Of a stretch of DNA of 43,626 nucleotides, positions 3,032 to 42,700 are shown in pieces. Made by a program: the position numbers and the translations under genes. Positions within the stretch are counted from its first letter, which is position 1. Every line of letters starts with the position of its first letter. Origin of the DNA: Candidatus Binatia bacterium. Its GTDB lineage: Bacteria; Eisenbacteria; RBG-16-71-46; SZUA-252. The DNA is taken from positions 1-43,626 of the forward strand of contig DASQJL010000080.1 of assembly GCA_035631035.1 (NCBI GenBank), read 5' to 3'. The notes beneath the pieces are model-generated. The model ran no database searches and was not told the origin of the DNA. It worked only from the letters and a program-made list of their open reading frames with translations.

Positions 3032-3694
3032 ATGCTTCGAACGTGGGTGCTGGTGCTGTGGCTCTTGGCCGCGACGATTGCCGCGTCGCTGATCGCTCGT
3101 CTCGTTCCCTTCGTCAGGGCCCAGGCGCCCGGCGAGAGTCTCCGGATCGCCGAGATCCTCGCGGGCCCGGCACGCGACTGGGATGGGGACGGCGTCTACG
3201 ACTCGCGCGCCGACGAGTGGGTCGAAGTCGTCAACAACGGGCTGGCGCCGCTGGACCTTGCGCCTTACCGCATCGCCGACGCGGATTCCACGATCCGGTA
3301 CGAGCTCTCGGGAACGCTCCTTCCGGGCGAGGTGCGCCTCGTCACGGGAAGCATGGCGGTCGCGCAGCAGCGCGCGCTGGGGCACACCGCGAGCGGGCTC
3401 TCCCTCAACAACTCGGGCGACACGGTGATCCTGTTCCGGGTCGGCGCGGCCGACACGACGCAGGTGGACGCGCACCGCTACGGCACCATCGAGGGGGCGA
3501 GCGACCGCTCCACGGGATGGATCGACGATCCCGCGACGTGGGTCCTGTTCGACGGGCTCAACAGGTACACCGGGGCGGGCGACCCTCAAGGGAACGGCTG
3601 TCCGCCGACGCCCGGCGCGCGGAACGGCTGCCCGCTTCCGGTCACCGAGACCACCTGGGGAAAGATCAAGGCGACCTATCTCGGGGATCGGTGA
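3032..3694 (+). CDS. Secreted lamin-tail-domain (LTD) protein
   Basis: 220 residues from the ATG at 3032, chosen because GGGGAGG (3019-3025) lies 6 nt before it; an ATG at 3026 is also in frame but touches the ribosome site. Residues 1-30 form a signal peptide or N-terminal anchor (VLVLWLLAATIAASLIA). The body resembles the lamin tail domain: LRIAEILAGP, then DEWVEVVNNG, APYRIAD, TLLPGEVRLV, LNNSGDTVILF, and DAHRYG with GASDRSTGW. Such beta-sandwich domains occur in many bacterial exported proteins, often with nucleases or anchoring parts, but alone they do not give a function. It lacks the FlgD-like tail found on the larger secreted proteins here. Confidence 0.75.
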   Translation: MLRTWVLVLWLLAATIAASLIARLVPFVRAQAPGESLRIAEILAGPARDWDGDGVYDSRADEWVEVVNNGLAPLDLAPYRIADADSTIRYELSGTLLPGEVRLVTGSMAVAQQRALGHTASGLSLNNSGDTVILFRVGAADTTQVDAHRYGTIEGASDRSTGWIDDPATWVLFDGLNRYTGAGDPQGNGCPPTPGARNGCPLPVTETTWGKIKATYLGDR

Positions 3695-3767: not shown

Positions 3768-3925
3768 TGTTCGGGCTCGGGTGCGGCGCGGCCGAAGGCC
3801 TTTGGGCGATGCGCCCCAGCGTCCGGCGCCAGGGCCCGAACACCTCCTAGGGTTTCTGCTCGAAAGGTTTCTGACTCGAAACCGAAAGCGGCGGCCGGAA
3901 GGGACAGCTGGCCGCCTCTTCTTTT
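3768..3925 (+). ncRNA. Candidate structured small RNA (no known family recognised)
   Basis: About 158 nt with no coding frame having a plausible start. TGTTCGGGCTC (3768-3778) pairs with GGGCCCGAACA (3832-3842) over 11 bp with one G-U pair, closing a multi-branch loop that includes GGCC-GAA-GGCC and GGGCG-ATG-CGCCC hairpins. Next come two tandem copies of a 15/16-nt unit (3851-3865, 3866-3881; the second forms GGTTTC/GAAACC) and then a terminator. It sits downstream of the Rex/CRP-like palindrome. The gene on the other side is on the minus strand, so this is unlikely to be a 5' leader. It is a prediction from folding and layout only. Confidence 0.4.
3890..3925 (+). terminator. Rho-independent terminator
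   Basis: GGCGGCC (3890-3896) pairs with GGCCGCC (3910-3916), a 7-bp GC stem with a 13-nt loop, followed directly by TCTTCTTTT (3917-3925). The U-tract is on the plus strand, so it ends transcripts that come from the left. The stem may also help stop the minus-strand lipoprotein gene ending at 3936. Confidence 0.65.
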
Positions 3926-4726: not shown

Positions 4727-7700
4727 ATGTCGCGAGCTGCGTCGCTGCTTCGCCTCCTTCCGTTCGTCCTCGCCGCCGGTCTCCTAGTCGCGGTTCCGTC
4801 GCCCGCGTCCGCCCAGCAGTCGCTGCAGGTGGACGGCGTGAACGACTACGTCACGTTCGGCGCGGCGCCCGGGCTGGGGTCCACGACCTTCACGATCGAG
4901 GTCGCGTTCAAACGGACCGCCGCGGGCGTGACCGCCAGCACCGGCACCGGCGGGGTGACCGCGGTGCCCCTGATCACGAAGGGACGCGGCGAGGCCGACG
5001 GCGCCAACACGGACATGAACTGGTTCCTGGGCATCAACGCCGCGAACCAGCTCACGGCCGATTACGAAGAAGGGGCCGGCCAGGCCTCGCCGGGGCTCAA
5101 CCACCCGGTCACCGGCACGACGGTGATCACGAACAACGTGTGGCATCACGCCGCGGCGGTGTTCGACGGCACGACGTGGAGCCTCTATCTCGACGGCAAT
5201 CTGGACGCCACGTTGGTCGTGGGAGCGGGGCGGCTCCCTCGATTCGACAGCATCCAGCACGCCGCGCTGGGCTCCGCGCTCACCTCGACCGGCGTCGCCG
5301 CGGGCTTCTTCGCGGGGCTCCTGGACGAGGCGCGCGTCTGGAACGTGGCGCGCACGCAGGCCCAGATCCAGGCGGGGATCGGGGCGGAAGTGCTGGCGTC
5401 GACGGGGCTGCTCGGGCGGTGGGGGCTGAACGAAGGGGCGGGCACGGGCGCGGGCAACTCGGTCGCGAGCGGCGTGAACGGAACGCTGACGAACGGGCCG
5501 GTCTGGAGCGCGGACTCGAACCTGCCGCTGGCGGCCGCGTCCGGCATCCGGCTCGGGGGCGCGAACGCCTACGTCGCGCTCGGCAGTCCGGCCTCCTTGC
5601 AGCTCTCGGCGTTCACGATCGAGCTCTGGATCCGGCGCGACGGCGCCGGCGCGGGCACGAACACCGGAAGCGGCGGCATTCCCGACGCGATCCCGCTGGT
5701 GGCGAAGGGTCGCGCCGAGGCCGAGACGGCAACCCAGGACATCAACTACCTCTTCGGCATTCGCGCCTCCGACGGCGTGCTCTGCGGCGACTTCGAGGAG
5801 GGTGCGGGCGGCGCTTCGCCCAGCCTGAACCACCCCGTCGCCGGAGTCACGCCGATCACGACCGGCGTCTGGCATCACGTGGCGGCCACCTACGACGGAA
5901 CCGCCTGGAAGCTCTACCTGGATGGGACGCTCGAAGCTTCGCTCGCGGTCGGGCGTCCGCTGGCTTCGGCCAGCATCTCGCCGGTCGCGATCGGCAGCGC
6001 CCTCACCAGCGTGGGTGCCGCCGCCGGATTCTTCGACGGCGCCGTGGACGAGGTCCGAATCTGGAACGTCGCGCGGACGCAGACCGAGATCGCCGCGTCG
6101 GCGAACGCCGAGATCATGGGCGCTGCCTCCGGACTGGTCGGACGATGGGGAATGAACGAGGACCAGGGGGCGGTGGTGGGCAGCACGGCGGGGACGACCT
6201 TGAACGGAACGCTGACCGGAACCGCATGGAGCTGGGCGGCCGGCTCGCCGTTCAACGCCGCGACGCCGGTGGCGCCCGCCGACCCGACGGGCCTGATCGC
6301 GTCCGGCGTTTCCCCGACGCAGATCGACCTTTCGTGGACGGACAACGCGTCGAACGAGACCGGCTACGAAGTGCAGCGTTCCACGACCGGGTCGGGCGGT
6401 CCGTACACGCCGCTGGTCACCTTGCCGGCGAACGCCACGTCCACTTCGGATCCGAGCCTCTCGCCCGCGACCGAGTACTGCTATCGCGTCCGGGCGGTGA
6501 ACGGCGTCGGCCCGTCGGGCTACGCGCCCGTTGCATGCGCCACGACGCAGAGCGTTCCGCCCCCGGCGGATCCGACCAACCTGATCGCGACCGCCATGAC
6601 CCCCGTGCAGATCGATCTGGCCTGGACCGACAACGCCACCGACGAGACCGGCTATGAAGTGGAGCGGTCCAGCACGGGCGCCGGCGGGCCGTTTGCGCCG
6701 CTCGTCGCCCTGCCGGCCAATGCCGTGAGCTATTCGAACATCGGGCTCGCCGCCTCCGCCGAGTACTGCTATCGCGTGCGCGCCGTGAACGGGGCGCTCG
6801 CCTCGGGGTATGCGGCGGTCGCCTGCGCGACGACGCTCGCGGCCCCTTCCGCTCCGAGCGGATTGACCGCCGCGGCGGTCACCTCCGGGCAGGTCCATCT
6901 GGCCTGGACCGACCTCGCCACCGACGAGACGGGCTATGCGGTGGAGCGGTCGACGGCCGGAGCCGGAGGACCGTTCGCGGTCGTTGCGACCCTCGCCGCG
7001 AATGCTGGGGCATGGGACGACCTGAACCGGGACGCGAATACGGAGTTCTGCTACCGCGTTCGCGCGCTCGGCGTCTACGTGCCGTCCGCCTACTCCTCCG
7101 TCGCCTGCGCCACCACGCCGACCGCCGTGCCGGGCAGCCTGGATCTCGCCGGCTCGACGTACGTCACGTTCGGCGATCCGAACGCCCTCGACCTCGCCGC
7201 GTTCACGCTGGAGTGCTGGTTCCGGCGCGACGGCGCGGGCACGACCACGACGACCGGCGCCGGGGGAATCCCGGCGGCCATTCCGCTGATCACGCACGGC
7301 GCACCCGAGGCGGACAACAGCAACGTCGACATGAACTACTTCCTGGGGATCCGTTCCGACGGCGTGCTGTGCGCGGACTTCGAGGAGGGGCCGGCCGGCC
7401 CGTCGCCGGGGCTCAACCACCCGGTCGCCGGCACCACCTCCGTCGCGGCGGGAAGCGGCTGGCATCACGCGGCCGCGACCTATGACGGCGCGAGCTGGAA
7501 CCTCTATCTCGACGGCAATCTCGAGGCCACGCTGGCCGTGGGCCGCCCGGTGCGCTCGAACTCGATCCAGCGGGCCGCCCTGGGAACCGCGCTCACCTCG
7601 ACCGGGGCCACGAACGGATTCTTCGACGGAGCGATCGACGAGGCGCGCGTCTGGAGCGTTGCGCGCACCCAATCCGAGATCCAGGCGACCGCCAACGCGC

Positions 7701-10700
7701 AGCTCGCGGCGGCCCAGGCCGGCCTGGCGGCGCGGTGGAGCCTCGACGAAGGTTCCGGCACGGTCGTCAACGCGAGCGCCGGGACCGAGGTGCCGGGCAC
7801 GATCACGGGCAGCAACTACGCCTGGTCCGGTCCGGCGCCCTTCAGCCTCTCCTTCTCGACGCCCGACGCGCCGTCGGGCCTCCAGGCCACGGCTCCCACC
7901 CACGCCGCCGTCCTGCTCACCTGGAATGACCAATCGAACAATGAGTCCTCGTTCCAGATCGAGCGCTCGACGTCGGGGAGCGGCGGGCCCTTCACGCCGC
8001 TTGCGACCGTCGCCGCCAACACGACGTCCTACGCGGACGTCGGCCTCGATCCCGCCACCGGGTACTGCTACCGGGTGCGCGCGGTGAACGGAAACGGCGC
8101 TTCGGCGTACGGGGGACCGGCGTGCGCGACCACGCCGTTCTCGACGAACACCGGGCTGGATTTTGGAAATGGCGGGTACGCGTCGTTCGGAAACGCCTCC
8201 GCGCTCCAGCTCTCCACGTTCACGATCGAGATGTGGATGCGGCGCGATGGCGCGGGAACCGGCACGAACACCGGAACCGGCGGCATCCCCGACCTGATCC
8301 CGCTCTTCGCCAGGGGACGCGCCGAGGCGGAAACGGCGACCCAGGACATCAACTACATCTTCGGCATCCGCGCCTCGGACAACGTGCTGTGCGCGGACTT
8401 CGAGGAAGGCGCCGCCGGAGCCTCCCCCAGCCTGAACCATCCGATCGCGGGAGCGACGCCGATCGGAATCGGGTCCTGGCATCACGTCGCCGCCACGTAC
8501 GACGGCTCGACGTGGAAGCTCTATCTCGACGGCAACCTCGACGCCTCGCTCACCGTGGGGCAGCCGGTCGCGGCCGCCAGCACCGTGGCCGCTTCGCTTG
8601 CGAGCGCACTTCTCTCCACAGGCGCCGCGGCCGGATTCTTCGACGGAGCGGTGGACGAAGTACGAGTGTGGAACGTGGCGCGCACCCAGGACCAGATCCA
8701 GTCGACGGCCAACGTGCCGATCGACGCGTCCGCCAGCGGCCTCGTCGCGCGGTGGAGCCTGGACGAGGGATGGGGCCCGTCGTTCGCCGGTTCCGCGGGA
8801 ACCTCGGTGAACGGGACGCTGATGGGCAGCCCGTACGCATGGGACGGCGGGGCGCCGTTCGACCTCGCCCTGAACCACGCGCCCGGCGCTCCGGTCGCGG
8901 TCGCTCCCGCGAACGGAGCCACCGGCGTTTCGACCTCGCCGACGCTCACCGCGAACGTGACCGACCCGGACGGCAACGCGCTCCAAGTCGCCTTCTACGG
9001 TCGCGCCGAATCGGGCACCCCGGGGCCGGACTTCACGATCATCGGAATCCCCGATACGCAGTACTACACCGGGCAGCTGAACGGCGGCACGAACGCGATC
9101 TTCCAGTCCCAGACGAACTGGATCGTGGCGAACAAGGACGCGCTCCACATCGCGTACGTCGCCACGCTGGGGGACTGCGTGGAGCACGGCGACAACAGCG
9201 GGAACGACATCGAGTGGCAGCGCGCCGACGCGTCCTACTCGATCATCGAAGATCCCGTGACCACTGGACTCCTGCATGGAATTCCCTACGGCGTGACGGT
9301 CGGGAACCACGACCAGTCCCCGATCGGGAACCCCGACGGAACCACGACCTTCTACAACCAGCATTTCGGGTCGTCCCGGTTCAGCGGCCGCAGCTACTAC
9401 GGCGGGCACTACGGCGCGAACAACGACAACTGGTACGACCTGTTCAGCGCGGGCGGGATGGACTTCCTGGTGATCTCGCTGGAGTACGACCCCACTCCCG
9501 ACCCCGCGATCATGGCCTGGGCGGACAACCTCCTCACGACGTACGCGAGCCGGAAGGCCATCCTCCTCAGCCACTTCATCGCGAACACCGGCAACCCGGC
9601 CGGCTTCGGACCTCAGGGGCAGGCGATCTACGACGCGTTCAAGGGGCACGCCAACGTGTCGCTGCTGCTCTGCGGCCACGTGCCGGGCGAGGGGCGCCGC
9701 CAGGATACCTATCTCGGCAACACGATCCACACGCTCATGGCCGACTACCAGGGGCGCACCAACGGCGGAAACGGCTGGCTCCGGATCCTCCAGTTCTCAC
9801 CCGCGAACAACACGCTGCGCGTGCGGACCTACTCGCCCTTGCTGGACCAGTACGAGGCCGATGCCGATTCCAGCAGCCAGTTCACGCTGACCTATCCGAT
9901 GACGACGACGCCCGCGTTCGCGTTGATCGGGACGACCGGTGGGGTGATGTCCGGCGGCACGGCCTCGGTAGCGTGGCCGGGACGTACGGCGGGCACCACG
10001 TACGAGTGGTACGCGACGGCGAACGACGGCGCCGCGACGACGGTCGGGACGGTTTCACGCTTCTCGACGGCCGAGGCTCCGACCTACACGCTCGCGACAT
10101 CCGTGACTCCGGCAGGGGGAGGCGCGGTCACCCGAAATCCAAACCAGGCGAGTTACATCGAGGGTTCTGCCGTCGAAGTCACCGCCGTCCCGAGCACGGG
10201 ATACCACTTCGTGAACTGGACGGGCGACCTCACGGGGTCGACGAATCCCCAGACCATCGCCATGGACGCCAATAAGTCCGTCACGGCAACCTTCGCGATC
10301 GATACCTACACGATCACCGCGACGGCAGGTGCCGGCGGGAGCATCACCCCGTCCGGTGCCGTCACCGTGAACTACGGCGCGGACCAGGCCTTCACGATCA
10401 CGCCGGACGTCGGCCATCACCTCGTCGACGTGAAGGTGGACGGCAGCTCGATCGGCGCGATCGCCAGCTACACGTTCGGCACGGTCACGGCGGCGCACAC
10501 GATCGAGGCCACGTTCGCGATCGACACCTACACGATCACGGCGACGGCGGGAGCCGGCGGGAGCATCACCCCGCCAGGTGCCGTTACCGTGAATTTCGGC
10601 GCGGACCAGGCCTTCGCGATCACACCGGACGTCGGCCATCACCTCGTCGACGTGAAGGTGGACGGCGGCTCGATCGGCGCGATCGCCGGCTACACGTTCA

Positions 10701-13700
10701 GCACGGTCACGGCGGCGCATACGATCGAGGCGACCTTCGCGATCGACACCTACACGATCACGGCGACGGCAGGTGCCGGCGGGAGCATCAGTCCCTCCGG
10801 AGACATCGCCGTGAATTTCGGCGCCGACCAGGCCTTCACGATCGCTCCGTCGACGGGGTATCACATCGCCAGCGTGCTCGTGGACGGCGCCTCGGTGGGA
10901 CCCGTGGGAAGCTACACGTTCAGCGGGGTTACCGCGGGGCACACGATCGCGGCGAGCTTCGCGGCGAATACCTTCACGATCACGGCTTCGTCCGGACCGG
11001 GTGGAGCGATCAGCCCCTCCGGCGACGTCGGTGTCAGCGAAGGAGAAGACAAGACCTTCACGATCACGCCGGCGACGGGGTATCACGTCGCGGACGTGCT
11101 CGTGGACGGCGCTTCGGTCGGCGCCGTCGCGTCCTTCACCTTCCAGGCGATCGCCGCGGGCCACACGATCGCGGCGAGCTTTGCGCTCGACACGTTCACG
11201 ATTACGGCTTCAGCCGGTTCCGGCGGAGCCATCGATCCCTCCGGCAGCGTCACGGTCGCCTACGGGTCCGACCGGGCCTTCACGATCGCTCCGTCGACGG
11301 GTTACCACATCGCCGACGTGCTCGTGGACGGGACGTCGATCGGAGCGGTGGGGACCTACACGTTCACCGCCGTCACCGCGGGTCACACGGTCGCGGCGAG
11401 CTTCGCGATCGACACGTTCACGATCACGGCTTCAGCCGGTTCCGGCGGCGCCATCGATCCCTCCGGCAGCGTCACGGTCGACTACGGGTCCGACCAGACC
11501 TTCACGATCACGCCGACGCTCGGATACCACATCGCGGACGTGCTGGTGGACGGGACCTCGATCGGAGCGATGGGGACCTATACCTTCACCGCCGTCGCCG
11601 CCGGCCACACGATCGCGGCGTCCTTTGCGCTCGACACGTTCACCATCGCGGCCTTCGCCGGCCCGGGCGGTGCCATCGATCCGTCGGGCGACGTCGCCGT
11701 CGGCTACGGGCTCGATCGGGCCTTCACGATCACTCCGAACGCCGGGTACCACGTCGCCGACGTGCTGGTGGACGGCAGCTCGGTCGGTCCGGTCTCGACG
11801 TACACGTTCACGGGCGTGACCGGCGACCACTCCATCGCGGCGACGTTCGCGATCAACACGTACACGATCACCGCCTCCGCCGGGCCGAACGGGAGCATCG
11901 CTCCCTCCGGCGCGACCACCCTGAACTACGGTGACGGTCAGAGCTACACGATCACCGCCGATCCCGGCTATCACGTCCTCGACGTGCTCGTCGACGGCGG
12001 CTCGGTGGGCGCCGTGACGACGTACGCATTCGCCGGCGTGGCGGCGGACCACACCATCGCGGCCAGCTTCGAGGCGAACTTCGACGCCCTCGATTTCGCG
12101 GGCACGAACGCCTACGCCTCCTTCGGCAATCCGGCCGAGCTCAAGCTCTCCGCCTTCACGATCGAGATGTGGATGCGGCGCGACGGGACTGGCGCGGGCA
12201 CCAACACCGGCACCGGCGGGATCGCGGACCTCGTGCCGCTCTTCGCCAAGGGACGCGCCGAAGCGGAGGATCCGCTCAAGGACATCAACTACATCTTCGG
12301 GGTGCAGGCCTCGACGGGCGTCCTTGGCGCCGATTTCGAAGAGGCGGCCTCGCCGAGCCCCAATCCCAGCCTCAACCACCCGGTGCTCGGCACCACGCCC
12401 CTCACGATCGGGACCTGGTATCACGTGGCCGCGACGTACGACGGGTCGACGTGGCGCCTGTACGTCAATGGCGCCCAGGACGCGGAGCTCGCGGTCGGGC
12501 GCGCGGTCGCGGTCTCCAGCAACGTCGCGGTCTCGCTGGCGAGCGCGCTCAACTCGACCAACCAGCCGGCCGGCTTCTTCGACGGGCGCGTGGATGAGGT
12601 GCGCGTGTGGAGCACCGCGCGCACGGCGACTCAGATCGCTTCGACGATCGACGCCCGCCTGACCGCACCCGCGCCCGGCCTCGTCGCCCGATGGGGAATG
12701 GACGAGGGGACCGGAGCGGCGATCCAGAGCATGGCGGGAACAGCCCTTCCGGGAACGCTGACGGGATCGGGATACGCCTGGTCCACGGGCGCCCCGTACG
12801 ACGTTCCGACGTTCACGGTCACCGCCGCCGCGGGCCCGGGCGGGGGGATCGATCCCTCCGGCGCCGTTCCCGTGATCCCGGGTTCGACGCCATCGTTCAC
12901 GATCACGCCCGACGCCTGCCACGACATCGCCGACGTCATGGTTGACGGCGCGTCGGTGGGCGCCGTCGGCTCGTACACCTTCCCGCCGGTCTCCGCGAGC
13001 GCGCACAGCATCACCGCCTCGTTCTCGCTCCGGTCGTTTGCCATCTCGGCGTCGGCCGGCCCGAACGGAACCGTTTCCCCGGCGGGATCGACGCTCGTCG
13101 GCTGCGGATCCGACCAGGGGTACACGATCGCCGCGGACGCCGGTTACCACGTGGCTGACGTGCTCGTGGACGGCGCCTCGGTGGGCGCGGTCGGTGCGTA
13201 CACCTTCACGGGCGTGACCGCGTCCCATACGATCGCGGCTGTGTTCGCCGCAAACGGCGACGCGCTGGCTCTGGCCGGCACGAACGGCTACGTGCTGTTC
13301 GGCAATCCGCCGGAGCTCAAGCTGAACGCCTTCACGATCGAGATGTGGGTGCGGCGCGACGGAACCGGAGTCGGAACCAACACCGGCGCCGGCGGCATCG
13401 CCGATCTCGTCCCGCTCTTCTCCAAGGGCCGCGCCGACGTGGAAGATCCGCTGCGCGACATCAACTACATCGTGGGCGTGCAGGCCTCGACCGGCGTCCT
13501 CGCCGCCGACTTCGAGGAAGCGGCCGCCCCGAGTCCGAATCCCAGCCTGAACCATCCGGTGCTGGGCGCGACGCCGCTCACGGTGGGCACGTGGTACCAC
13601 GTGGCCGCGACGTATGACGGGTCGGCCTGGCGTCTCTATGTGAACGGGAGGCTCGACGCGCAGCTCGCCGTCGGCCGCGGCGTGGCCTCGGCCAGCGACG

Positions 13701-16510
13701 CGCCGGTGGCGCTCGGGACCGCGATGACGACCGCCGTGCCCGCGGCGGGGTTCTTCCAGGGCGTCTGCGACGAGGTCCGGATCTGGAGCGTGGCGCGCAC
13801 GCCGGCCGAGATCCTCGCGACGATCAACGATCGCATCATCACGCCGGCGACAGGACTGGTTGCCCGCTGGGGGCTGGACGAGGGGACGGGAACGCTCGTG
13901 CAGAGCACGGCCGGGGTCCCGCTGGATGGGACGGTCACCGGCTCGGGCTTCAACTGGACCACCGGCGCGCCGTTCAACGCGGCGCCGCCGACGCCTCCGG
14001 CCCTGCCGAGCAACCTGACGGCGGAGGGGGTTTCCGCGGGACGCATCGACCTGACCTGGACCGACGGCTCGGACAACGAGAGCGGGTTCGAGATCGAGCG
14101 CTCCACGTCGGGGAGCGGCGGGCCGTTCGCCCCGCTGATCACCGTGGCCGCCGACGCGACGACCTATTCGAACACCGGCCTCGCGCCGGCGACGGAGTAT
14201 TGCTATCGGATCCGCGCCGTCAACGGGGCGGGATCTTCCAGCTATGACGGGCCGGTCTGCACGTCGACCGAGGCCACGCCGGCGTTCGCGCTGGCGTTCA
14301 ACGGGAGCACCTACGTCAACTTCGGCGATCCCGCGGCGCTCGACCTCCCGCAGTTCACGATCGAGACCTGGTTCCGGCGCGACGGCGCCGGCACCACGGC
14401 GTCGACCGGATCGGGAGGCGTGACCGACGCGATCCCGCTCGTCACCCACGGCACCTCCCAGGCCGACGGGAGCAACGTGGACATGAACTTCTTCCTCGGG
14501 ATCAAGAGCGCCGGCTCGGTCCTCTGCGCCGACTTCGAGGAGGGTGCCGGGGGCGCGAGCCCCGGGCTGAACCATCCGATTCTCGGCGTCACCCCGATCA
14601 CGAACGGCGTCTGGTATCACGCCGCCGCGACCTACGACGGCGCGACCTGGAAGCTCTATCTGAACGGCAACCTTGAGAGTCAGCTCGCGGTGGGCCAGCC
14701 CGTGCAGTCGGCTTCGATCCAGCTCGCGGCGCTTGCCTCGTCGATCACGTCGACCGGAACCGCGCAGGGCTTCTTCGTCGGAGCGCTGGACGAGACGCGG
14801 ATCTGGAACGCGGCACGGACCCAGGCGGACATCCAGGGGGCCATCAACGCACAGATCGCCGCTCCGGCGGCGGGTCTGGTCGCCCGCTGGGCGCTGGACG
14901 AGGGCTCCGGCACGGCCGTGGGCAGCTCGGCAGGAACTTCGGTGAACGGAACGATCAGCGGCACCGCGTACACGTGGGTCGCCGGCGCGCCGTTCAACCT
15001 GGCGTTCAACCTGCCGCCGACCGCACCGCTGCTGGTCGGACCGGCGGACCAGGCCGCCGATGTGGGGCTTGCGCCCACCCTCCAGGTGTCGGCTTCCGAT
15101 CCCGACGGACAGAGCCTGACCGTCCAGTTCTACGGACGCTCGGCGGTGTCCACGCCCGGGAGCGATTTCACCATCGTGGGCATGCCGGACACGCAGTACT
15201 ACACGGGCGAGCTGAACGGCGGGACGAACGCGATCCTGCTGTCGCAGACCAGCTGGATCACGGCGAACCGGGCCTCGCGCAACATCGGCTACGTCGCCAC
15301 GCTGGGCGATTGCGTAGAGCACGGCGACAACGGCGGCAACGACATCGAGTGGCAGCACGCCGACGCGGGCTATTCCCTCATCGAGAATCCGGGAACGACC
15401 GGGCTGCCCGAGGGGCTCCCGTACGGGATCACGGTGGGGAACCACGACCAGTCGCCCAACGGAAATCCCGACGGCGCCACGACGGTCTTCTACAACCAGT
15501 ACTTCGGGTCGGCGCGGTTCACCGGGCGCTCCTATTACGGCGGCCACTACGGCTCGAACAACGACAACTGGTACAACCTCTTCAGTGCGGGGGGCATGGA
15601 CTTCGTCGTCATCTCCCTGGAGTACGACACCACTCCGGACGCGGCGATCCTGGACTGGGCGGACGGACTCCTCACGACGTACGCCAACCGCCGCGCGATC
15701 CTCCTCTCGCACAACTTCATCGGGACCGGCAACCCGGGCGCCTGGAGCGCGCAGGGGCAGGCCACGTACGACCGGCTGAAGACCCACACCAATCTCTTCC
15801 TGATGCTCTGCGGGCACGTGCCGGGCGAAGGCCGTCGCGTCGACACCTTCAACGGCAATACCGTGTACACGGTGATGTCCGACTACCAGGGGCGGACGAA
15901 CGGCGGCAACGGCTGGCTGCGCCTCATGCAGTTCTCGCCATCCAACAACGTCATCCACGTCACCACCTACTCGCCCTGGCTGGACCAGACCGAGAACGAC
16001 GCCGACAGCCAGTTCGATATCCCGTATTCGATGAGCTCCGCCGAGTCGTACGCGCTGCTGGGAACGGTGCCCGGCGTCATGTCCGGAAGCACGGCCAGCC
16101 TCACGCTGGCCGGGTTGGCCGGCGGGACGCCCTATCAGTGGTACGTCACCGTGAGCGACGGCGTGGCCACCGCGACCGGACCGACGTGGGGGTTCACGAC
16201 GCATGCGATCACCGGGGTGGCGGAACAGCCGGTCACCGCGTTCTCGATGCGGATGACGTCCAGCAACCCCACGTCGTCCGGCGCCTCGATCGCCTTCGAT
16301 CTGCCGCGCCCCGAGCGGGTTCAGGTCGAGCTGTTCGACGCCGCGGGCCGGCTCGTGGCGACGCTGGCCAACGCGGAATATCCGACGGGCCGCCATTCCC
16401 TGCGCTGGGAAGGGCGGACGGCGCATGGACAGGCGCCCTCCGGCGTCTATTTCGTGCGCTTCCGGGCGCCGGGGCACGCGCTGACCCGGCGGTTCGTACT
16501 CCTCCGTTAG
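4727..16510 (+). CDS. Giant secreted multidomain protein: LamG, FN3, bacterial repeats, two nested metallophosphoesterases, FlgD-like tail
   Basis: 3927 residues; ATG 4727 has AGGAG 8 nt upstream and begins a clear signal peptide (ending ASAQQ near residue 28). In order: LamG-like jelly rolls at about 31-270 and 273-510; FN3 at 513-799 (three); LamG 803-1041; FN3 1044-1139; LamG 1142-1381; Ig-like half, calcineurin-like phosphoesterase (Asp1443, GNHD 1526-1529, GH 1650-1651) and other Ig half, 1384-1784; nine ~74-residue repeats 1785-2450; LamG 2451-2692; two repeats 2693-2843; LamG 2844-3085; FN3 3087-3183; LamG 3186-3425; second split Ig with phosphoesterase (Asp3488, GNHD 3571-3574, GH 3696-3697) to 3827; C-terminal FlgD-Ig-like domain 3830-3927 ending LTRRFVLLR. 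In both enzyme domains the usual GHxH reads GHVP. Likely surface-bound or released; it may bind glycans and cleave phosphoesters. Substrate unknown. Confidence 0.93.
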   Translation: MSRAASLLRLLPFVLAAGLLVAVPSPASAQQSLQVDGVNDYVTFGAAPGLGSTTFTIEVAFKRTAAGVTASTGTGGVTAVPLITKGRGEADGANTDMNWFLGINAANQLTADYEEGAGQASPGLNHPVTGTTVITNNVWHHAAAVFDGTTWSLYLDGNLDATLVVGAGRLPRFDSIQHAALGSALTSTGVAAGFFAGLLDEARVWNVARTQAQIQAGIGAEVLASTGLLGRWGLNEGAGTGAGNSVASGVNGTLTNGPVWSADSNLPLAAASGIRLGGANAYVALGSPASLQLSAFTIELWIRRDGAGAGTNTGSGGIPDAIPLVAKGRAEAETATQDINYLFGIRASDGVLCGDFEEGAGGASPSLNHPVAGVTPITTGVWHHVAATYDGTAWKLYLDGTLEASLAVGRPLASASISPVAIGSALTSVGAAAGFFDGAVDEVRIWNVARTQTEIAASANAEIMGAASGLVGRWGMNEDQGAVVGSTAGTTLNGTLTGTAWSWAAGSPFNAATPVAPADPTGLIASGVSPTQIDLSWTDNASNETGYEVQRSTTGSGGPYTPLVTLPANATSTSDPSLSPATEYCYRVRAVNGVGPSGYAPVACATTQSVPPPADPTNLIATAMTPVQIDLAWTDNATDETGYEVERSSTGAGGPFAPLVALPANAVSYSNIGLAASAEYCYRVRAVNGALASGYAAVACATTLAAPSAPSGLTAAAVTSGQVHLAWTDLATDETGYAVERSTAGAGGPFAVVATLAANAGAWDDLNRDANTEFCYRVRALGVYVPSAYSSVACATTPTAVPGSLDLAGSTYVTFGDPNALDLAAFTLECWFRRDGAGTTTTTGAGGIPAAIPLITHGAPEADNSNVDMNYFLGIRSDGVLCADFEEGPAGPSPGLNHPVAGTTSVAAGSGWHHAAATYDGASWNLYLDGNLEATLAVGRPVRSNSIQRAALGTALTSTGATNGFFDGAIDEARVWSVARTQSEIQATANAQLAAAQAGLAARWSLDEGSGTVVNASAGTEVPGTITGSNYAWSGPAPFSLSFSTPDAPSGLQATAPTHAAVLLTWNDQSNNESSFQIERSTSGSGGPFTPLATVAANTTSYADVGLDPATGYCYRVRAVNGNGASAYGGPACATTPFSTNTGLDFGNGGYASFGNASALQLSTFTIEMWMRRDGAGTGTNTGTGGIPDLIPLFARGRAEAETATQDINYIFGIRASDNVLCADFEEGAAGASPSLNHPIAGATPIGIGSWHHVAATYDGSTWKLYLDGNLDASLTVGQPVAAASTVAASLASALLSTGAAAGFFDGAVDEVRVWNVARTQDQIQSTANVPIDASASGLVARWSLDEGWGPSFAGSAGTSVNGTLMGSPYAWDGGAPFDLALNHAPGAPVAVAPANGATGVSTSPTLTANVTDPDGNALQVAFYGRAESGTPGPDFTIIGIPDTQYYTGQLNGGTNAIFQSQTNWIVANKDALHIAYVATLGDCVEHGDNSGNDIEWQRADASYSIIEDPVTTGLLHGIPYGVTVGNHDQSPIGNPDGTTTFYNQHFGSSRFSGRSYYGGHYGANNDNWYDLFSAGGMDFLVISLEYDPTPDPAIMAWADNLLTTYASRKAILLSHFIANTGNPAGFGPQGQAIYDAFKGHANVSLLLCGHVPGEGRRQDTYLGNTIHTLMADYQGRTNGGNGWLRILQFSPANNTLRVRTYSPLLDQYEADADSSSQFTLTYPMTTTPAFALIGTTGGVMSGGTASVAWPGRTAGTTYEWYATANDGAATTVGTVSRFSTAEAPTYTLATSVTPAGGGAVTRNPNQASYIEGSAVEVTAVPSTGYHFVNWTGDLTGSTNPQTIAMDANKSVTATFAIDTYTITATAGAGGSITPSGAVTVNYGADQAFTITPDVGHHLVDVKVDGSSIGAIASYTFGTVTAAHTIEATFAIDTYTITATAGAGGSITPPGAVTVNFGADQAFAITPDVGHHLVDVKVDGGSIGAIAGYTFSTVTAAHTIEATFAIDTYTITATAGAGGSISPSGDIAVNFGADQAFTIAPSTGYHIASVLVDGASVGPVGSYTFSGVTAGHTIAASFAANTFTITASSGPGGAISPSGDVGVSEGEDKTFTITPATGYHVADVLVDGASVGAVASFTFQAIAAGHTIAASFALDTFTITASAGSGGAIDPSGSVTVAYGSDRAFTIAPSTGYHIADVLVDGTSIGAVGTYTFTAVTAGHTVAASFAIDTFTITASAGSGGAIDPSGSVTVDYGSDQTFTITPTLGYHIADVLVDGTSIGAMGTYTFTAVAAGHTIAASFALDTFTIAAFAGPGGAIDPSGDVAVGYGLDRAFTITPNAGYHVADVLVDGSSVGPVSTYTFTGVTGDHSIAATFAINTYTITASAGPNGSIAPSGATTLNYGDGQSYTITADPGYHVLDVLVDGGSVGAVTTYAFAGVAADHTIAASFEANFDALDFAGTNAYASFGNPAELKLSAFTIEMWMRRDGTGAGTNTGTGGIADLVPLFAKGRAEAEDPLKDINYIFGVQASTGVLGADFEEAASPSPNPSLNHPVLGTTPLTIGTWYHVAATYDGSTWRLYVNGAQDAELAVGRAVAVSSNVAVSLASALNSTNQPAGFFDGRVDEVRVWSTARTATQIASTIDARLTAPAPGLVARWGMDEGTGAAIQSMAGTALPGTLTGSGYAWSTGAPYDVPTFTVTAAAGPGGGIDPSGAVPVIPGSTPSFTITPDACHDIADVMVDGASVGAVGSYTFPPVSASAHSITASFSLRSFAISASAGPNGTVSPAGSTLVGCGSDQGYTIAADAGYHVADVLVDGASVGAVGAYTFTGVTASHTIAAVFAANGDALALAGTNGYVLFGNPPELKLNAFTIEMWVRRDGTGVGTNTGAGGIADLVPLFSKGRADVEDPLRDINYIVGVQASTGVLAADFEEAAAPSPNPSLNHPVLGATPLTVGTWYHVAATYDGSAWRLYVNGRLDAQLAVGRGVASASDAPVALGTAMTTAVPAAGFFQGVCDEVRIWSVARTPAEILATINDRIITPATGLVARWGLDEGTGTLVQSTAGVPLDGTVTGSGFNWTTGAPFNAAPPTPPALPSNLTAEGVSAGRIDLTWTDGSDNESGFEIERSTSGSGGPFAPLITVAADATTYSNTGLAPATEYCYRIRAVNGAGSSSYDGPVCTSTEATPAFALAFNGSTYVNFGDPAALDLPQFTIETWFRRDGAGTTASTGSGGVTDAIPLVTHGTSQADGSNVDMNFFLGIKSAGSVLCADFEEGAGGASPGLNHPILGVTPITNGVWYHAAATYDGATWKLYLNGNLESQLAVGQPVQSASIQLAALASSITSTGTAQGFFVGALDETRIWNAARTQADIQGAINAQIAAPAAGLVARWALDEGSGTAVGSSAGTSVNGTISGTAYTWVAGAPFNLAFNLPPTAPLLVGPADQAADVGLAPTLQVSASDPDGQSLTVQFYGRSAVSTPGSDFTIVGMPDTQYYTGELNGGTNAILLSQTSWITANRASRNIGYVATLGDCVEHGDNGGNDIEWQHADAGYSLIENPGTTGLPEGLPYGITVGNHDQSPNGNPDGATTVFYNQYFGSARFTGRSYYGGHYGSNNDNWYNLFSAGGMDFVVISLEYDTTPDAAILDWADGLLTTYANRRAILLSHNFIGTGNPGAWSAQGQATYDRLKTHTNLFLMLCGHVPGEGRRVDTFNGNTVYTVMSDYQGRTNGGNGWLRLMQFSPSNNVIHVTTYSPWLDQTENDADSQFDIPYSMSSAESYALLGTVPGVMSGSTASLTLAGLAGGTPYQWYVTVSDGVATATGPTWGFTTHAITGVAEQPVTAFSMRMTSSNPTSSGASIAFDLPRPERVQVELFDAAGRLVATLANAEYPTGRHSLRWEGRTAHGQAPSGVYFVRFRAPGHALTRRFVLLR
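7858..10076 (+). repeat. Duplicated FN3-LamG-Ig(phosphoesterase) module, copy 1
   Basis: Encodes an FN3 domain, a LamG domain and the split Ig-like domain with phosphoesterase 1. The same order recurs at 13985-16205. The distance from LamG start to the PDTQYY motif is the same in both (about 886 nt), pointing to duplication of the whole block. Confidence 0.75.
10301..12076 (+). repeat. Eight tandem 222-bp coding repeats (74 residues each)
   Basis: Units start at 10301, 10523, 10745, 10967, 11189, 11411, 11633 and 11855, exactly 222 bp apart. Each encodes [DN]T[YF]TI, an AGxGG or near variant, SPSG/DPSG, VLVDG or VKVDG, YTF and H(T/S)IAASFA, a Bacterial_repeat/InlB-B-like unit. A more divergent unit precedes them (about 10079-10300). 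Likely a rigid extracellular stalk. Units differ by many substitutions, so the array is not brand new. Confidence 0.9.
12806..13252 (+). repeat. Two further bacterial-repeat units of the giant protein
   Basis: Units of 225 bp (12806-13030) and 222 bp (13031-13252) encode the same repeat family as the main array but lie between two LamG domains. They carry unusual cysteines (DACHD, VGCGSD) that are absent from the main array. Confidence 0.8.
13985..16205 (+). repeat. Duplicated FN3-LamG-Ig(phosphoesterase) module, copy 2
   Basis: Second copy of the block at 7858-10076, same domain order and spacing, followed directly by the FlgD-like tail instead of the repeat array. Confidence 0.75.
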
Positions 16511-30296: not shown

Positions 30297-32702
30297 TCAG
30301 CGGACGAGCATGATCCGCCGAACCAACGTTCGTCCCTCCGCCTCGAGCCGCGCGAAATAGAGTCCGCTTGGCGCAGGCGCTCCGCTCCGCGTGCGGCCGT
30401 CCCATTTCTTGAAGGTCGTTCCGGCCGGCGTTTCGCCGGATGCGATATCGCGGATGAAATGGCCTGCCGCATCGTAGAGCGCGAGCCGGATCGGTCCGCT
30501 GCGGGTGAGGTCGATGCGCAGCATCGCCTCGTTCCCCGGATTGCGCGAAGCCACCGCCAGCACCAGCTCCGGCGCGGACGCTCCCGGAGGCACTCCGTTC
30601 ACTCCCTGCGGCAGCACCGTTGCGAAGGCGGACTCGTTGCCATGGACGTCCACCGCCGAGACCTTGTACCAGTAGGCCGCGCCCGCCGCATCGACGTATC
30701 CGGTGTCCGGCGGGGAAGCCACCCGGTTCGACGGTCCGGGCGTGAAGGTGCTCGCGGTCCCGCGGTAGACGCGATATCCATAGAGATCCGTCTCGAGGTT
30801 CGGAGCCCACGACAGCACGCTCGTTCCGGAGTACCAGCGCGCGGCCAGCTGGGCCGGGGGACCGGGAGCGAGATTGTCGACCGAGTACCCGCTGTCGGGC
30901 GCGGAATCCCAGAACGCGTCACCCCCCGTCCAGCGCGCCTCGACCATGAAGGACGTCCGTGGGTTGGCGTTCGGAAGGGAGTCGCGCGTGGTCGGAGCCA
31001 CGAACGTGTACTGCGTCGAGCCGTTCGCCGACTGCGAAGCGACGAACTCCCAGGCGTACGCCGATGACGCGGAGTGCCGGAACAGCCGCGTCGCCGAGGA
31101 ACCGGTTCCGATCGCCGCCTGAAGCGACGCGGGATCGTCGACCCAGCGCGCGCCGCGCTGGATCGCCGCGCTGGCCAGGGACGCCGGCGCCTGCCGCCAG
31201 ACGTAGTAGCTGGAAATCGAGTAGTACGGATCCGCGTCGAGGTAGCTCGCGTTCCACGCCAGCCGGACATGTCCCCCCTGGTCGCCGCGGACGTCCGTGA
31301 CTCCGGACATCGCGGGCTCCGGATTCGCGAGCGCGCCGAAGCGGTCGATACGCTGGGCGTGCACCTGCATCGCGACCGGATCGGGATAGCCCCAGCCGAC
31401 AATCACACCGTGCGCTCCGTCCGACGCCGCGCCGATCGGACCATAGAAGCCGTTCAGATTCACGGCGACACCCGATCCCCAGTGGGCCACGCTCCCGCCG
31501 TCTGCCGGGAGTCTCTGGGCGTAGAGATTGCCATTGCCCGTTGCTTCGATCGCGCCCCCGGAGCCGTCGGACGCGATCGCGGCGGGAAGGCCGAATCCGA
31601 TGCTCCCGAGATCCACGGGCCAGCCAAGCGCCGCGCCGTTCGCGCTGGCGCGATTGATCATGCTATGCCCGAACCGTTCCTGCCACGAGACGATCACGCC
31701 TCCCGTGCCGTCCGGGATCACGTTGTAGTCGGGACTGTCGAGCCCGAAGCTGGTGTACAGGCCATAGCCGGTCGCCGTGAAGTTGGAGGCGTAGCGCTGG
31801 GTTCGGAGATCGTAGTTGGCGTGCGACTCGTTCGTCTCCCACATGAGCTGAAATCCCCCGCTTCCGTCGGCGACCGCACGGGGGTTGACGTCGGTGTACA
31901 AACCTCCTTCGAGCAGGATCCGGGTAGGGTTGACGATCAGCGTCCCCGATCCATTGGACCGCAGTCCGTAGATCTGAGGACGGCCGCTGTACAGAGACGA
32001 AGAGTCCTGGTAGACGACGAAGAACCCACCCGATCCGTCCGTCGCCATCGAGATCTGGCGCGCGTCCTGGAGGCTGTTGTCGAGGGACCAGCTGAAAACG
32101 ATGCTTCCGCCGCCCGTGACATGCGAGGCGTAGACGTCGGTGTCGGTGTTGCTGAAGGAGAGCTCCCAGCTGATCAGCGCGCCGCCGTTCCCGTCCGAGC
32201 AGACCTGGGGCCGCCGCTCGTTGTAGATCAACGTGGAGATCGCGAGCCCGGTCGAAGGCCAGCTCCCGCCCGCCAGCGTGCCGTTCCCCAGCACACGTTG
32301 GGCGTAGATATCGCCGTTTCCAGAGCGACGGTCCGCCCACACGACGATCACGCCGTCGGACCCGTCATTCGTCATCTGCGGCTGGAGCTTCTGCCCGGCG
32401 ATCGCGGCCACCTGCACTCCGGTTGAGGACCAGCCCGTTGCGACGTCACCCTTGGCGTTCAGGCGCTGAACGTAGACGTCCTCCGTCCCATTCCGTTTGT
32501 CGGTGAAGAGGAAGAAGGCGCCGCCAGTCCCGTCCGCAAGGACTTGAGCCAACGACTGGTCTCCCGAGGAGGGAGCGATTGGCGGGTAGACATAGGGGTG
32601 CTGAGGCCATGCGGCAAGAGCCTCCGAGCTGGAACCAATGAGCGCGAGCAACAGGAGCAGGAGCAGGACAGGACGAGACGGTTGAGCGAGGGGCGCGGTC
32701 AC
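30297..32702 (-). CDS. Secreted propeller-like protein with FN3-like region and FlgD-Ig-like C-terminal tail
   Basis: 801 residues from GTG 32702, which has GGAGG 5 nt upstream and starts a signal peptide with a leucine run (LLLLLLLLALIGSSSEALA); the frame continues further upstream but without a ribosome site. Residues about 40-480 have recurring DGSGGxxVVW and DxYAQR-like units (for example NDGSDGVIVVWADRRSGNG), as in beta-propeller proteins. An FN3-like part (PGPPAQLAARWYSG, LSWAPN) follows, then a C-terminal FlgD-Ig-like domain (IRLALYDAAGHFIRDIAS, GLYFARLEAEGRTLVRRIML) that should direct it to the cell surface or export system. Target unknown. Confidence 0.85.
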   Translation of the reverse strand: MTAPLAQPSRPVLLLLLLLALIGSSSEALAAWPQHPYVYPPIAPSSGDQSLAQVLADGTGGAFFLFTDKRNGTEDVYVQRLNAKGDVATGWSSTGVQVAAIAGQKLQPQMTNDGSDGVIVVWADRRSGNGDIYAQRVLGNGTLAGGSWPSTGLAISTLIYNERRPQVCSDGNGGALISWELSFSNTDTDVYASHVTGGGSIVFSWSLDNSLQDARQISMATDGSGGFFVVYQDSSSLYSGRPQIYGLRSNGSGTLIVNPTRILLEGGLYTDVNPRAVADGSGGFQLMWETNESHANYDLRTQRYASNFTATGYGLYTSFGLDSPDYNVIPDGTGGVIVSWQERFGHSMINRASANGAALGWPVDLGSIGFGLPAAIASDGSGGAIEATGNGNLYAQRLPADGGSVAHWGSGVAVNLNGFYGPIGAASDGAHGVIVGWGYPDPVAMQVHAQRIDRFGALANPEPAMSGVTDVRGDQGGHVRLAWNASYLDADPYYSISSYYVWRQAPASLASAAIQRGARWVDDPASLQAAIGTGSSATRLFRHSASSAYAWEFVASQSANGSTQYTFVAPTTRDSLPNANPRTSFMVEARWTGGDAFWDSAPDSGYSVDNLAPGPPAQLAARWYSGTSVLSWAPNLETDLYGYRVYRGTASTFTPGPSNRVASPPDTGYVDAAGAAYWYKVSAVDVHGNESAFATVLPQGVNGVPPGASAPELVLAVASRNPGNEAMLRIDLTRSGPIRLALYDAAGHFIRDIASGETPAGTTFKKWDGRTRSGAPAPSGLYFARLEAEGRTLVRRIMLVR

Positions 32703-32775
32703 GGGTGCCTCCACGACGGCCGGCGCTACGACCGGCCCAGGGTTGCGCGCAAATCGTCCAAGCAGCGAGGAGCCC

Positions 32776-32785
32776 GAGTATACTC
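32776..32785. promoter_or_regulatory. Palindromic -10-like element between divergent genes
   Basis: GAGTATACTC is a perfect palindrome, so TATACT reads as a -10 on both strands. On the plus strand the VOC start codon at 32791 lies only 6 nt after it, which suits leaderless transcription; on the minus strand it would lie about 75 nt before the FlgD-tail start. No good -35 on either side. Confidence 0.4.
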
Positions 32786-32790
32786 TTCCC

Positions 32791-33159
32791 GTGACCACGG
32801 TCCGCTACATCGTTCATGACGTCGACGCCGCGGTCGCGTTCTATGCGGGGGCCCTGGGCTTCGAGCTGAAGCAGCAGTTCGGCCCGGCCATGGCCATCCT
32901 CACGCGCGGCGACCTCACGCTCTGGACGGCGGGGCCGATGGCATCCGCGGCGCGGCCGATGCCCGACGGGCGGAAGCCCGAGCCGGGAGGATGGAACCGC
33001 TTCGTGATCGAGGTGGACGATCTCGCGAGCTTCGTCGCGACGCTTCGCACGAAGGGCGTGGCCTTTCGGAACGAGATCGTGGAAGGTCCCGGCGGCAAGC
33101 AGATTCTCTGCGAGGATCCGTGGGGGAACGTCGTCGAGCTCTTCGAGCCCGCCCGCTAG
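32791..33159 (+). CDS. VOC (glyoxalase/bleomycin resistance) family protein
   Basis: 122 residues from GTG 32791. The two beta-alpha-beta-beta-beta halves are visible: VRYIVHDVDAAVAFYAGALG with LTLWTAGP, and GWNRFVIEVDDLASFVATL with KQILCEDPWGNVVELFEPA. Metal-binding positions would be His8-like and the Glu near the end. Members include glyoxalase I, dioxygenases and antibiotic-binding proteins; substrate not predictable. A TATACT just 6 nt upstream and no ribosome site suggest a leaderless mRNA. Its TAG shares the CTAG (33156-33159) with the stop of the convergent DUF1634 gene. Confidence 0.85.
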   Translation: MTTVRYIVHDVDAAVAFYAGALGFELKQQFGPAMAILTRGDLTLWTAGPMASAARPMPDGRKPEPGGWNRFVIEVDDLASFVATLRTKGVAFRNEIVEGPGGKQILCEDPWGNVVELFEPAR

Positions 33160-39725: not shown

Positions 39726-39761
39726 ATGTCAATCCGTCATGGGGCGCGCGGGGGAGGATCC

Positions 39762-42700
39762 GTGCGCACTGGCGGAAGCGGTATTCCTGATGGGCCCCGT
39801 CGTGGGCCGTTCTTTCCCGTAGCAAAACCAGCCCTGGCCTTGCGCCGATCGACCGCTTTGCCGCTTTGCGCGGTCCTGATCACCGGTTTCCTGCTTCTGG
39901 CGCTGCCGCTTCCGGGAGCGGCCAGGGAGCAAGAGACGAAGGGCGGGGCCGTCACCACCGGGACGACCTCGGGCGCGACACTTCTCGCGCCTCCCAGGGC
40001 GCTCCTCTCGGGAACGCTTCTCAAGCGATCCGCCACCACGACCTCGTGGTTCCTGTATCCAGGCGCGTGCGCCGACCGGGCATCCAACACGTGGTCTCCG
40101 CGCACCAGTCCCGTCGCGGACTCGTTGAACTCCTACTCGGCCGGCACCACAGGTCCCTACACGGCGCAGGATCAATCGCTGAAGGAGATCCTCTGGCACA
40201 AGGTGACGACCTCGGTTCCGGCGGGCGAGCGGCCGGCCGCCGGCGCCGGCGGCCCCATCTTCGGGACCGCCGCCCTCTGGGCCGGCAAGTACGAGGCGAA
40301 CTGGGTCGTGAAGGTCGGCTATCCCAACGTCACCTACCAGCTCCTCTACATCGACACCGGCGCGCACGCCGGCAACTACACGATGACGTTCCAACAATAC
40401 CAGTCGTGCGAGCAGAACTACGACTTCGTGTACTTGATCGGCGGCGGGAACAACGACGTGGATCCGATCGGCAACTCGCGTCCGAAGCTGGACGACCTGG
40501 TCGCGACCGGGACCGACGGCAACTCTCGTCTGCTCGTCACGTGGACCGGCTCGATCAGCCCCTCGACCCCGGGCGCGCTTTCACTCAACGGCGTCGCGGG
40601 CGGCGTGACGGTGACGGGTTCCGGTTCGGGCCAGCCCGCGGTGACCGCGGTTTCGGTCTCCATGGCGCAGGCTGATCGCGCGGTCTATCTCCTGTTCACG
40701 AGCGAAGAGCGGATGTCCTCGGAGGACGGGCTCTGGCCTTACGGAAACGGCGTCGTGCTCGATGACCTGGCCACGAGCGACAACGGATCGATCTTCGCCG
40801 ACGGCACGGGGGTCGGCGGTGCGGACCCGGTCGGTTCCGAGGGTCAGACCATCCAGGGCTCGTTCGGTTCAGCCGGCTACATCTCGGGGCGGGTGGTGCC
40901 AGGCGCCGGCACGCTATGGCATCTCGCGACCGGGTCGGCCAAGCCGACCTCCGATTTCTGCTCCCCGGACAAAGCGCTCGGCTCGAATCTCTTCTTCGAG
41001 GCGTCGGACACCGGCACCGGTATAACCAATCCGCGCTCCTTCGCTTCCATCGTGACGTGCACGTTTCCGATTCCGGCCGGGACCGCTTCCGTCACCGCGA
41101 GCTGGCGGGAATACCGGGATCTCCAGCGCGGATCGGGGCTCGTCGCGGTCACGGAGTACCGGGTCTTCGGCGCGGGCGGATGGTCCGACTGGACGAACGC
41201 CCAAGCGGACCTGTCCCTCCGGGTCGGGGGCGATAAGGCGTGGAGCGCGGTCTCGGCGGAGCTCGCGTCTGCCGTCCAGGCGGATTCCGTCCAGCTCCGA
41301 TTCACGCTGCAGTGCGTGCCGCTCCTTGCCAGCGACCTCACCAACTGTTCCTTGGTGCAGTACGGCCTCTTCTACGACGACCTGGGCCTCAGGGTAACGA
41401 CCGGCGTCCCGGCTCCCACGTTCGGTCTGTATCCCGGCACGCTTCCTCAGAGCACGTTCGTGGACGGAACGATGACGGGCTCGAACTGCGCGACGCCGCC
41501 GTGCTGGCCGGGGATCCGCGGCTCCGACGTTCCGGGCTCCGTGGGCAACTCGAACGTGGCTCTGCACGACAACTTCAACACCCCGCTTGGCGACTCGATC
41601 GTGGTCTCTCTCGTGACCGGTCTTCGCAAGAACGGGATGGGCATCAACTGGATGCAGGGCTTCGACCGGACCGTCAGCGAAGGCCTCACGATCGCTCGCA
41701 CGAACGCCTCGTACAACGCGGCGTTCGACCAGCCGCGGGTGATCTACCGCCTGTTCGATCCGACGAACAAGACCTGGAGCCCGTGGGATTCGTCGGCGCT
41801 CGACGCGAACAACGTGTCGATCTCGGCCGGTCCGCCCGCGGACACCGTCGTCATCGACGGCGAGTACCGGATGGACTGGCCGCCGCGCGACAAGGCCGGC
41901 CTGAACCTTCCGGGCGGCTTCACGATCAACGGCGTGGGCGCGTACAACAGCCTCGCGTTCCTGCCGCGCGGCACGCGCCTGCAGTATTACTTCAAGGCCG
42001 TGGACATCAACGGAGGGGTCGTCTATCAGTTCGGATCAGAAGGCGCGGCGAACGAGGTCGAGGATCTGCCGGCGCTGCCGGGTGGCTCCCCGAGGGCTCC
42101 CGACATTCTGGAATTCCGTGTCCTGCCCGGCACCTACGCGCCGGGCGCGGGAGGCACCCTGCTGGCCGGCAGGACGAACACACCCATCCTCAACCTGGAC
42201 GGCGCGTACACCATCTGGTCCAACGGCCTCGATCCCGTGACGCAGGCGTTGCGCGGCCTGGGCGTGCGCGCCGACCGGTATCGTTTCCTCCAGGGGCTGG
42301 ACCAGGGCTCCAACGTCGGCGGGCACGAGCTCACGGGCGCTCCGGACAATCAGCGCCCGAGCCGCGTCTCGAACTACTTCCCGAACATGACCGAGTACTC
42401 CGTTCGCGAGTCGCTCTCCACCTGGTACCGGATCCTGATCCAGTCGAGCCACATCCGCGCCGCCACGCTGGAAGATGAGTCCGACGCTCGGCTCATCGAG
42501 GAGTGGTGGGCGAGCGCGACGCCTGGCACCAACGGCGGCGACCGCTGCATGTTCGTTTCGGGTGACGACTACTTCAACGCGCTGTTGAATACCTCCGGGG
42601 CGGATCCGGCCCCGCGCCGTCATTCGATGGGCAACAACGTGCTCGGGGTGAACTCCGCGACGGGCTCGTGGAACGGTACCTTTGCGGTCCTGTATCCGAC

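Follow-up and report, generated by a model that had tools for sequence, protein, structure and literature searches.

The window analysed here, a stretch of 43,626 nt, encodes a giant exported protein carrying two metallophosphoesterases, and both sequence comparison and structural modelling strongly support an arrangement in which the whole phosphoesterase is nested in the C-C′ loop of one split Ig/FN3-like domain. The open reading frame is preceded by an AGGAG site, indicative of good ribosome binding, and its stop-free translation (4727-16510) agrees with the predicted length of 3927 residues. The N-terminus carries a Sec signal peptide, MSRAASLLRLLPFVLAAGLLVAVPSPASA (residues 1-29, judged by eye). 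Pfam and local profiles yielded the domain order listed in the table, with seven LamG domains, five FN3 domains and 11 InlB-B-type repeats, the last positioned at residues 1788-1858 (one), 1859-2452 (eight of 74 aa) and 2694-2844 (two); the original prediction had arrived at the same numbers of LamG domains and stalk repeats. All seven LamG domains found in the source genome sit in this protein.

Table. Features of the 3927-aa protein, in order along the window.
Feature	Position	Strand	Basis
Giant exported protein, 3927 aa, whole ORF with stop	4727..16510	+	Translation, ribosome-binding site
Sec signal peptide, residues 1-29, ends ASA|QQ	4727..4813	+	Sequence; AGGAG upstream
LamG 1	4817..5443	+	Pfam / local profiles
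LamG 2	5540..6169	+	Pfam / local profiles
Three FN3 domains, residues 516-797	6272..7117	+	Pfam / local profiles
LamG 3	7136..7759	+	Local profiles
FN3 preceding block 1	7859..8134	+	Local profiles
LamG 4, within conserved LamG-Ig(enzyme) module	8150..8776	+	Local profiles, LamG spacing in relatives
Predicted split Ig-like domain, N-half, copy 1; strands A, B, C; residues 1384-1429	8876..9013	+	Model, profile mapping
Inserted calcineurin-like metallophosphoesterase (predicted), copy 1 (PDTQ, GD, GNHD, SH, GHVPGEG)	9023..9901	+	Model, Foldseek, motif alignment
Predicted split Ig-like domain, C-half, copy 1; strands C′, E, F, G	9908..10075	+	Model, PDB match, profile mapping
Nine Flg_new_2 / InlB-B-type repeats (one divergent and eight of 74 aa)	10088..12082	+	Pfam / local profiles
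LamG 5	12086..12715	+	Local profiles
Two more InlB-B-type repeats	12806..13258	+	Local profiles
LamG 6	13262..13891	+	Local profiles
FN3 preceding block 2	13994..14272	+	Local profiles
LamG 7, within conserved LamG-Ig(enzyme) module	14285..14911	+	Local profiles, LamG spacing in relatives
Predicted split Ig-like domain, N-half, copy 2	15011..15148	+	Alignment to copy 1, profile mapping
Inserted metallophosphoesterase (predicted), copy 2	15158..16030	+	Alignment to copy 1, motif alignment
Predicted split Ig-like domain, C-half, copy 2	16037..16210	+	Alignment to copy 1
T9SS type A sorting tail / FlgD-Ig-like C-terminal domain	16268..16507	+	Pfam, TIGR04183

The LamG-Ig(metallophosphoesterase) block occurs twice, at 8150-10075 and 14285-16210, and the enzyme and strand motifs were all located where they had been predicted. 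In copy 1 and copy 2, respectively, DPDG is found at residues 1413 and 3458, PDTQYY at 1442 and 3487, GNHD at 1526 and 3571, and CGHVPGEG at 1649 and 3695, while VAFYGR at residue 1421 of copy 1 corresponds to VQFYGR at 3466 of copy 2, and the C-half motif reads FALIGTTGGVMSG at residue 1731 and YALLGTVPGVMSG at 3775. The larger FN3-LamG-Ig(enzyme) block, likewise claimed to be present twice, recurs at a spacing of 6135-6138 nt. The distance from the LamG start to PDTQYY is indeed equal in both copies (residues 1142-1442 and 3187-3487), but with the LamG boundary used here it amounts to 900 nt instead of the previously given value of about 886 nt. The nested units are 66% identical, and an alignment of the two larger blocks, proposed earlier as a check, gave 61% identity across 710 residues (E = 0). 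A duplicate created by the assembly was rejected because the copies differ too much; in addition, copy 2 joins a sequence from another genome (L053; 100/98) before it joins copy 1. Copy 1 thus lies outside the pair, and therefore the duplication predates that split. Judged from these sequence comparisons, the two enzymes of the giant chain are old paralogues. No second ORF with two nested enzymes was found in the survey of relatives, in which some contigs are cut.

In regard to the split domain, the AlphaFold model of the nested unit, built from 47 sequences (pLDDT 95.5, pTM 0.83), places three to four strands before the enzyme and four to five after it, nearly all with pLDDT of about 97 (model numbering 7-10, 15-18, 23-27 and 36-44, enzyme about 50-342, then 349-357, 362-366, 375-383 and 394-398). 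In the model, this gives strands A-B-C, the enzyme, and C′-E-F-G of a seven-stranded sandwich. A profile of continuous Ig domains maps to the same pieces in the correct order, with columns 1-39 falling on the N-piece and about 49-99 on the C-piece. Among the 47 nested blocks, this profile matched the N-piece in 35, the C-piece in 18 and both in 15, with one stray match; matches were accepted to E 1, at which the weakest are not significant alone, and the continuous domains were chosen with the window sequence, making divergent relatives the more independent test. Furthermore, the N- and C-pieces joined without the enzyme match continuous domains across the junction elsewhere in the same phylum, mostly in proteins resembling M14-type carboxypeptidases by sequence, for example just before the sorting tail. 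In hhalign, the joined pieces aligned with continuous domains over 98 columns (E 1.9e-11), compared to 39 columns when the order of the pieces was swapped. Among PDB sequences, the N-piece weakly matches the first half of the bacterial Ig domain 9kvu, and the C-piece, also weakly, the last half of 3b83, the FN3 design TEN-D3. A search of the 80 loci described below for a close uninterrupted Ig domain of the VTFYGR type next to the nested ones found none (E ≤ 0.01).

Alternatively, the flanking pieces could be separate small domains or linkers, in accordance with their weak detection by Pfam. We regard this as highly improbable, as the continuous profile splits across both pieces in the right order and the fused pieces match uninterrupted domains of other proteins. 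In addition, the N-piece has only three to four strands in about 44 aa, yet is modelled with pLDDT of about 97, and two relatives that fall among the nested forms in the tree, L092 and L098, are without both pieces together. Pairing between the two halves is what we infer from strand order, model confidence and profile mapping. The nested arrangement and the structure prediction proposed for it earlier agree, and the flanks, instead of being independent domains, behave in sequence and model as halves of one Ig/FN3-like sandwich.

A scan of 84,980 species genomes returned 80 loci with relatives. The nested form was found at the same junction in 47 ORFs, 46 of them with both halves, and the enzyme alone in 36 ORFs. 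The remaining nested ORF, L086, was rejected as a stand-alone form since a divergent N-half is present. In three pairs of loci (L012 and L052, L016 and L057, L011 and L051), a relative from the window's own phylum has its DNA in common with a record named Candidatus Eisenbacteria. Records of the nested form, mostly MAGs, carry eight phylum labels (Eiseniibacteriota, Chloroflexota, Acidobacteriota, Myxococcota, Verrucomicrobiota, Planctomycetota, Bacteroidota and Pseudomonadota), and 8 of the 47 genomes of the window's phylum contain it. The two Pseudomonadota forms may be misbinned; L065, a nested protein from an Alphaproteobacteria-labelled MAG, is located inside a Phycisphaerae clade (99/94) and was probably misbinned or transferred. 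Another nested-form relative (L138, 3001-4167; 40% identity, query residues 3-399) comes from an IMG/VR contig classed as viral, which may be a misclassified bacterial contig. L079 is a lipoprotein-like protein of 430 aa with little besides the nested unit, and in L067, L095 and L101 the protein ends with the last strand of the C-half. In L098 (7803-10331, Chloroflexi MAG), the stand-alone enzyme is fused to a beta-lactamase-family (PF00144) domain.

On the tree, the nested and stand-alone labels change four times with L086 corrected, and twice if L092 and L098 are left out, while shuffled labels (first labelling, with L086 as stand-alone) required 28 changes on average. The AU test does not reject a single clade of nested forms (p-AU 0.35), and the simplest reading is one insertion, followed by spread and rare loss. 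The architecture had been called unusual, which applies to the two enzymes per chain, seen only here, but not to LamG-Ig(enzyme) proteins, some of them giant, which occur in several phyla. In 22 loci other than the window (L086 counted), LamG lies 77-85 residues ahead of Ig(enzyme), and it is present in 27 of the 47 nested ORFs versus none of the 36 stand-alone ORFs. Being confined to nested forms and fixed in spacing, it makes LamG-Ig(enzyme) a conserved module, within which the model does not fix the orientation of LamG to Ig (pTM 0.52). The LamG domain resembles a putative Bacteroides carbohydrate-binding protein (4dqa), PAPP-A and pentraxins.

Pfam Metallophos does not match the whole 3927-aa protein at E ≤ 0.001, and the enzyme was consequently identified through its relatives and fold. 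PF00149 was detected at E ≤ 1 in 26 of 47 nested relatives (best 3.1e-11), and no NCBIfam model matches the LamG-Ig(enzyme) block. According to Foldseek, the nearest fold is that of mammalian purple acid phosphatase (1ute, 7ov8; E about 4e-11), followed by Mre11/SbcD nucleases (prob 1.00 for both groups). An enzyme profile searched against PDB sequences found only 2nxf, weakly (E 0.2) and in motifs IV-V, and the stand-alone L092 used as a query returned nothing useful. The ligand residues D, Q, GD, GNHD, H and the His of GH are identical in all 48 nested rows, both window copies included, and D1443, Q1445, G1482-D1483, G1526-NHD, H1616 and H1651 show little or no variation among 85 relatives. 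E1655, D1673-Y-Q (DYQ) and GG.G are typical for the family.

The metal motifs of the calcineurin-like superfamily (D, GD, GNH(D/E), H, GH) are present, as is, in the model, its alpha/beta-sandwich MPE fold, but the canonical DxH and the second His of GHxH are not. Motif I is DxQ in 84/84 rows with that column, and the second His is absent from the window copies (GHVPGE) and across the family. As motif I is known to vary within this superfamily, membership is based on the fold and the other motifs; with DxQ and no second His, the metal site departs from the textbook arrangement. Two marks of purple acid phosphatases, the GDxxY tyrosine and GHxH, are missing as well, both in the window (GDCVE, GHVPG) and across the family, so the enzyme is not a purple acid phosphatase. 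It is expected to be an active metal-dependent phosphoesterase.

It is rather unlikely that the enzyme-like domain is non-catalytic and instead binds phosphate or a ligand as part of a giant adhesin. The missing second His of GHxH, the replacement of His by Gln in the first motif and the position among adhesin-like LamG and FN3 domains could all be explained in this way, but inactive enzyme families usually erode, while here the other metal ligands are invariant in the 48 nested relatives and in almost every stand-alone one, across large distances, and the DYQ...GG.G signature is retained. Gln in motif I also occurs in active enzymes of the ADPRibase-Mn type, the weak 2nxf match covering the later motifs only. 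The protein could also be a nuclease or phosphodiesterase that scavenges phosphate from extracellular DNA instead of a glycan-directed enzyme. Mre11/SbcD nucleases, as the second-best fold group, point in that direction; however, purple acid phosphatases score higher, and carbohydrate is the more frequent ligand of LamG jelly rolls, as the likeness to 4dqa also suggests, which makes a DNA-directed role quite unlikely.

The C-terminal tail, which the original prediction did not describe, matches the type A sorting domain TIGR04183 with 25.2 bits (cut-off 23), and with 32.4 bits in another search. The source genome encodes SprA (C112) and PorU (461 bits, cut-off 420) adjoining PorV (C76:40465-44916), along with about 60 T9SS-type sorting tails. 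Together with the Sec signal, these core genes make T9SS display of the protein on the surface likely, as predicted from sequence, and the earlier claim of an exported, surface-displayed protein fares accordingly well. Two further ORFs in the window, 39726-43526 (+) and 30297-32798 (-), have FlgD-Ig/T9SS-type tails. An apparent open frame of 24,560 aa carrying a T9SS tail (G000:C113:126533-199999) consists of a run of N and about 490 real residues, and was discarded as a giant gene. Nested relatives elsewhere end in T9SS tails, dockerins or a sortase domain, and given this variety, export looks general while anchoring differs by lineage. No linked pathway was found in the gene neighbourhood of the 3927-aa ORF, and a literature search found no paper pairing Eisenbacteria with T9SS or LamG.

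Sequence and model taken together, we consider it probable that the protein is a T9SS-displayed giant with a LamG-bound polymer and an Ig-mounted enzyme predicted to hydrolyse phosphate (di)esters. In this Candidatus Eisenbacteria-type bacterium, Sec would carry the protein through the inner membrane, and the type IX system would take it through the outer one, remove the tail and fix the protein to the surface. LamG domains would bind a glycan or particle, FN3 and InlB-B-type repeats would act as spacers, and the Ig host would serve as a rigid mount, keeping the enzyme out to the side of the stalk by two strands. With metal ions held by D..Q, GD, GNHD, H and GH, the enzyme would cleave phosphate ester or diester bonds of the extracellular polymer that is bound, resulting in phosphate release or polymer breakdown. 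More tentatively, such proteins could form an undescribed cross-phylum family of surface lectin-phosphoesterases, with LamG-Ig(enzyme) as the unit, the Ig mount set sideways on the stalk, an altered metal site (DxQ, no second GHxH His) and phosphate-bearing extracellular polymers as targets. The enzyme insertion in the Ig/FN3-like C-C′ loop is kept at one place across the eight labelled phyla, and would give bacteria a way of attaching an enzyme to a surface stalk through two covalent connections rather than a single one. The substrate of this unannotated family would reveal phosphate-bearing polymers used by mostly uncultured bacteria, and for protein engineering the junction marks a place where an Ig-like scaffold tolerates an insertion in nature.

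Compared with known systems, the enzyme shares its fold and motifs D, GD, GNHD, H and GH with the PF00149 calcineurin-like superfamily and purple acid phosphatase (1ute, 7ov8), but differs in DxQ, in lacking the second GHxH His and the GDxxY Tyr, and in the Ig insertion. Its sequence likeness to the ADPRibase-Mn-like phosphatase 2nxf is weak and limited to motifs IV-V, where 2nxf has GHDH in the aligned stretch; to our knowledge, no nested Ig, LamG or T9SS tail occurs in the ADPRibase-Mn family. A beta-sandwich is also joined to a phosphoesterase of similar fold in those purple acid phosphatases that carry an FN3-like domain at the N-terminus (PF16656, Pur_ac_phosph_N), but there the sandwich precedes the enzyme, while here the enzyme interrupts the sandwich. 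LamG proteins with T9SS tails (PF13385 and TIGR04183) have Laminin_G_3 jelly rolls, a signal peptide and a C-terminal sorting domain in common with the window protein, and we know of none with a nested enzyme. One domain likewise interrupts another in domain-insertion architectures, which PMC13114784 reports for 20% of multidomain proteins; in a text search, neither phosphoesterases nor immunoglobulin or fibronectin domains turned up in that paper. The literature search found no paper that brings a metallophosphoesterase together with either LamG plus FN3 or nested Ig domains. Assembled from component domains that are already known, the nested unit seems to represent a widespread and so far undescribed architecture, and the novelty would lie in the conserved unit and its breadth.
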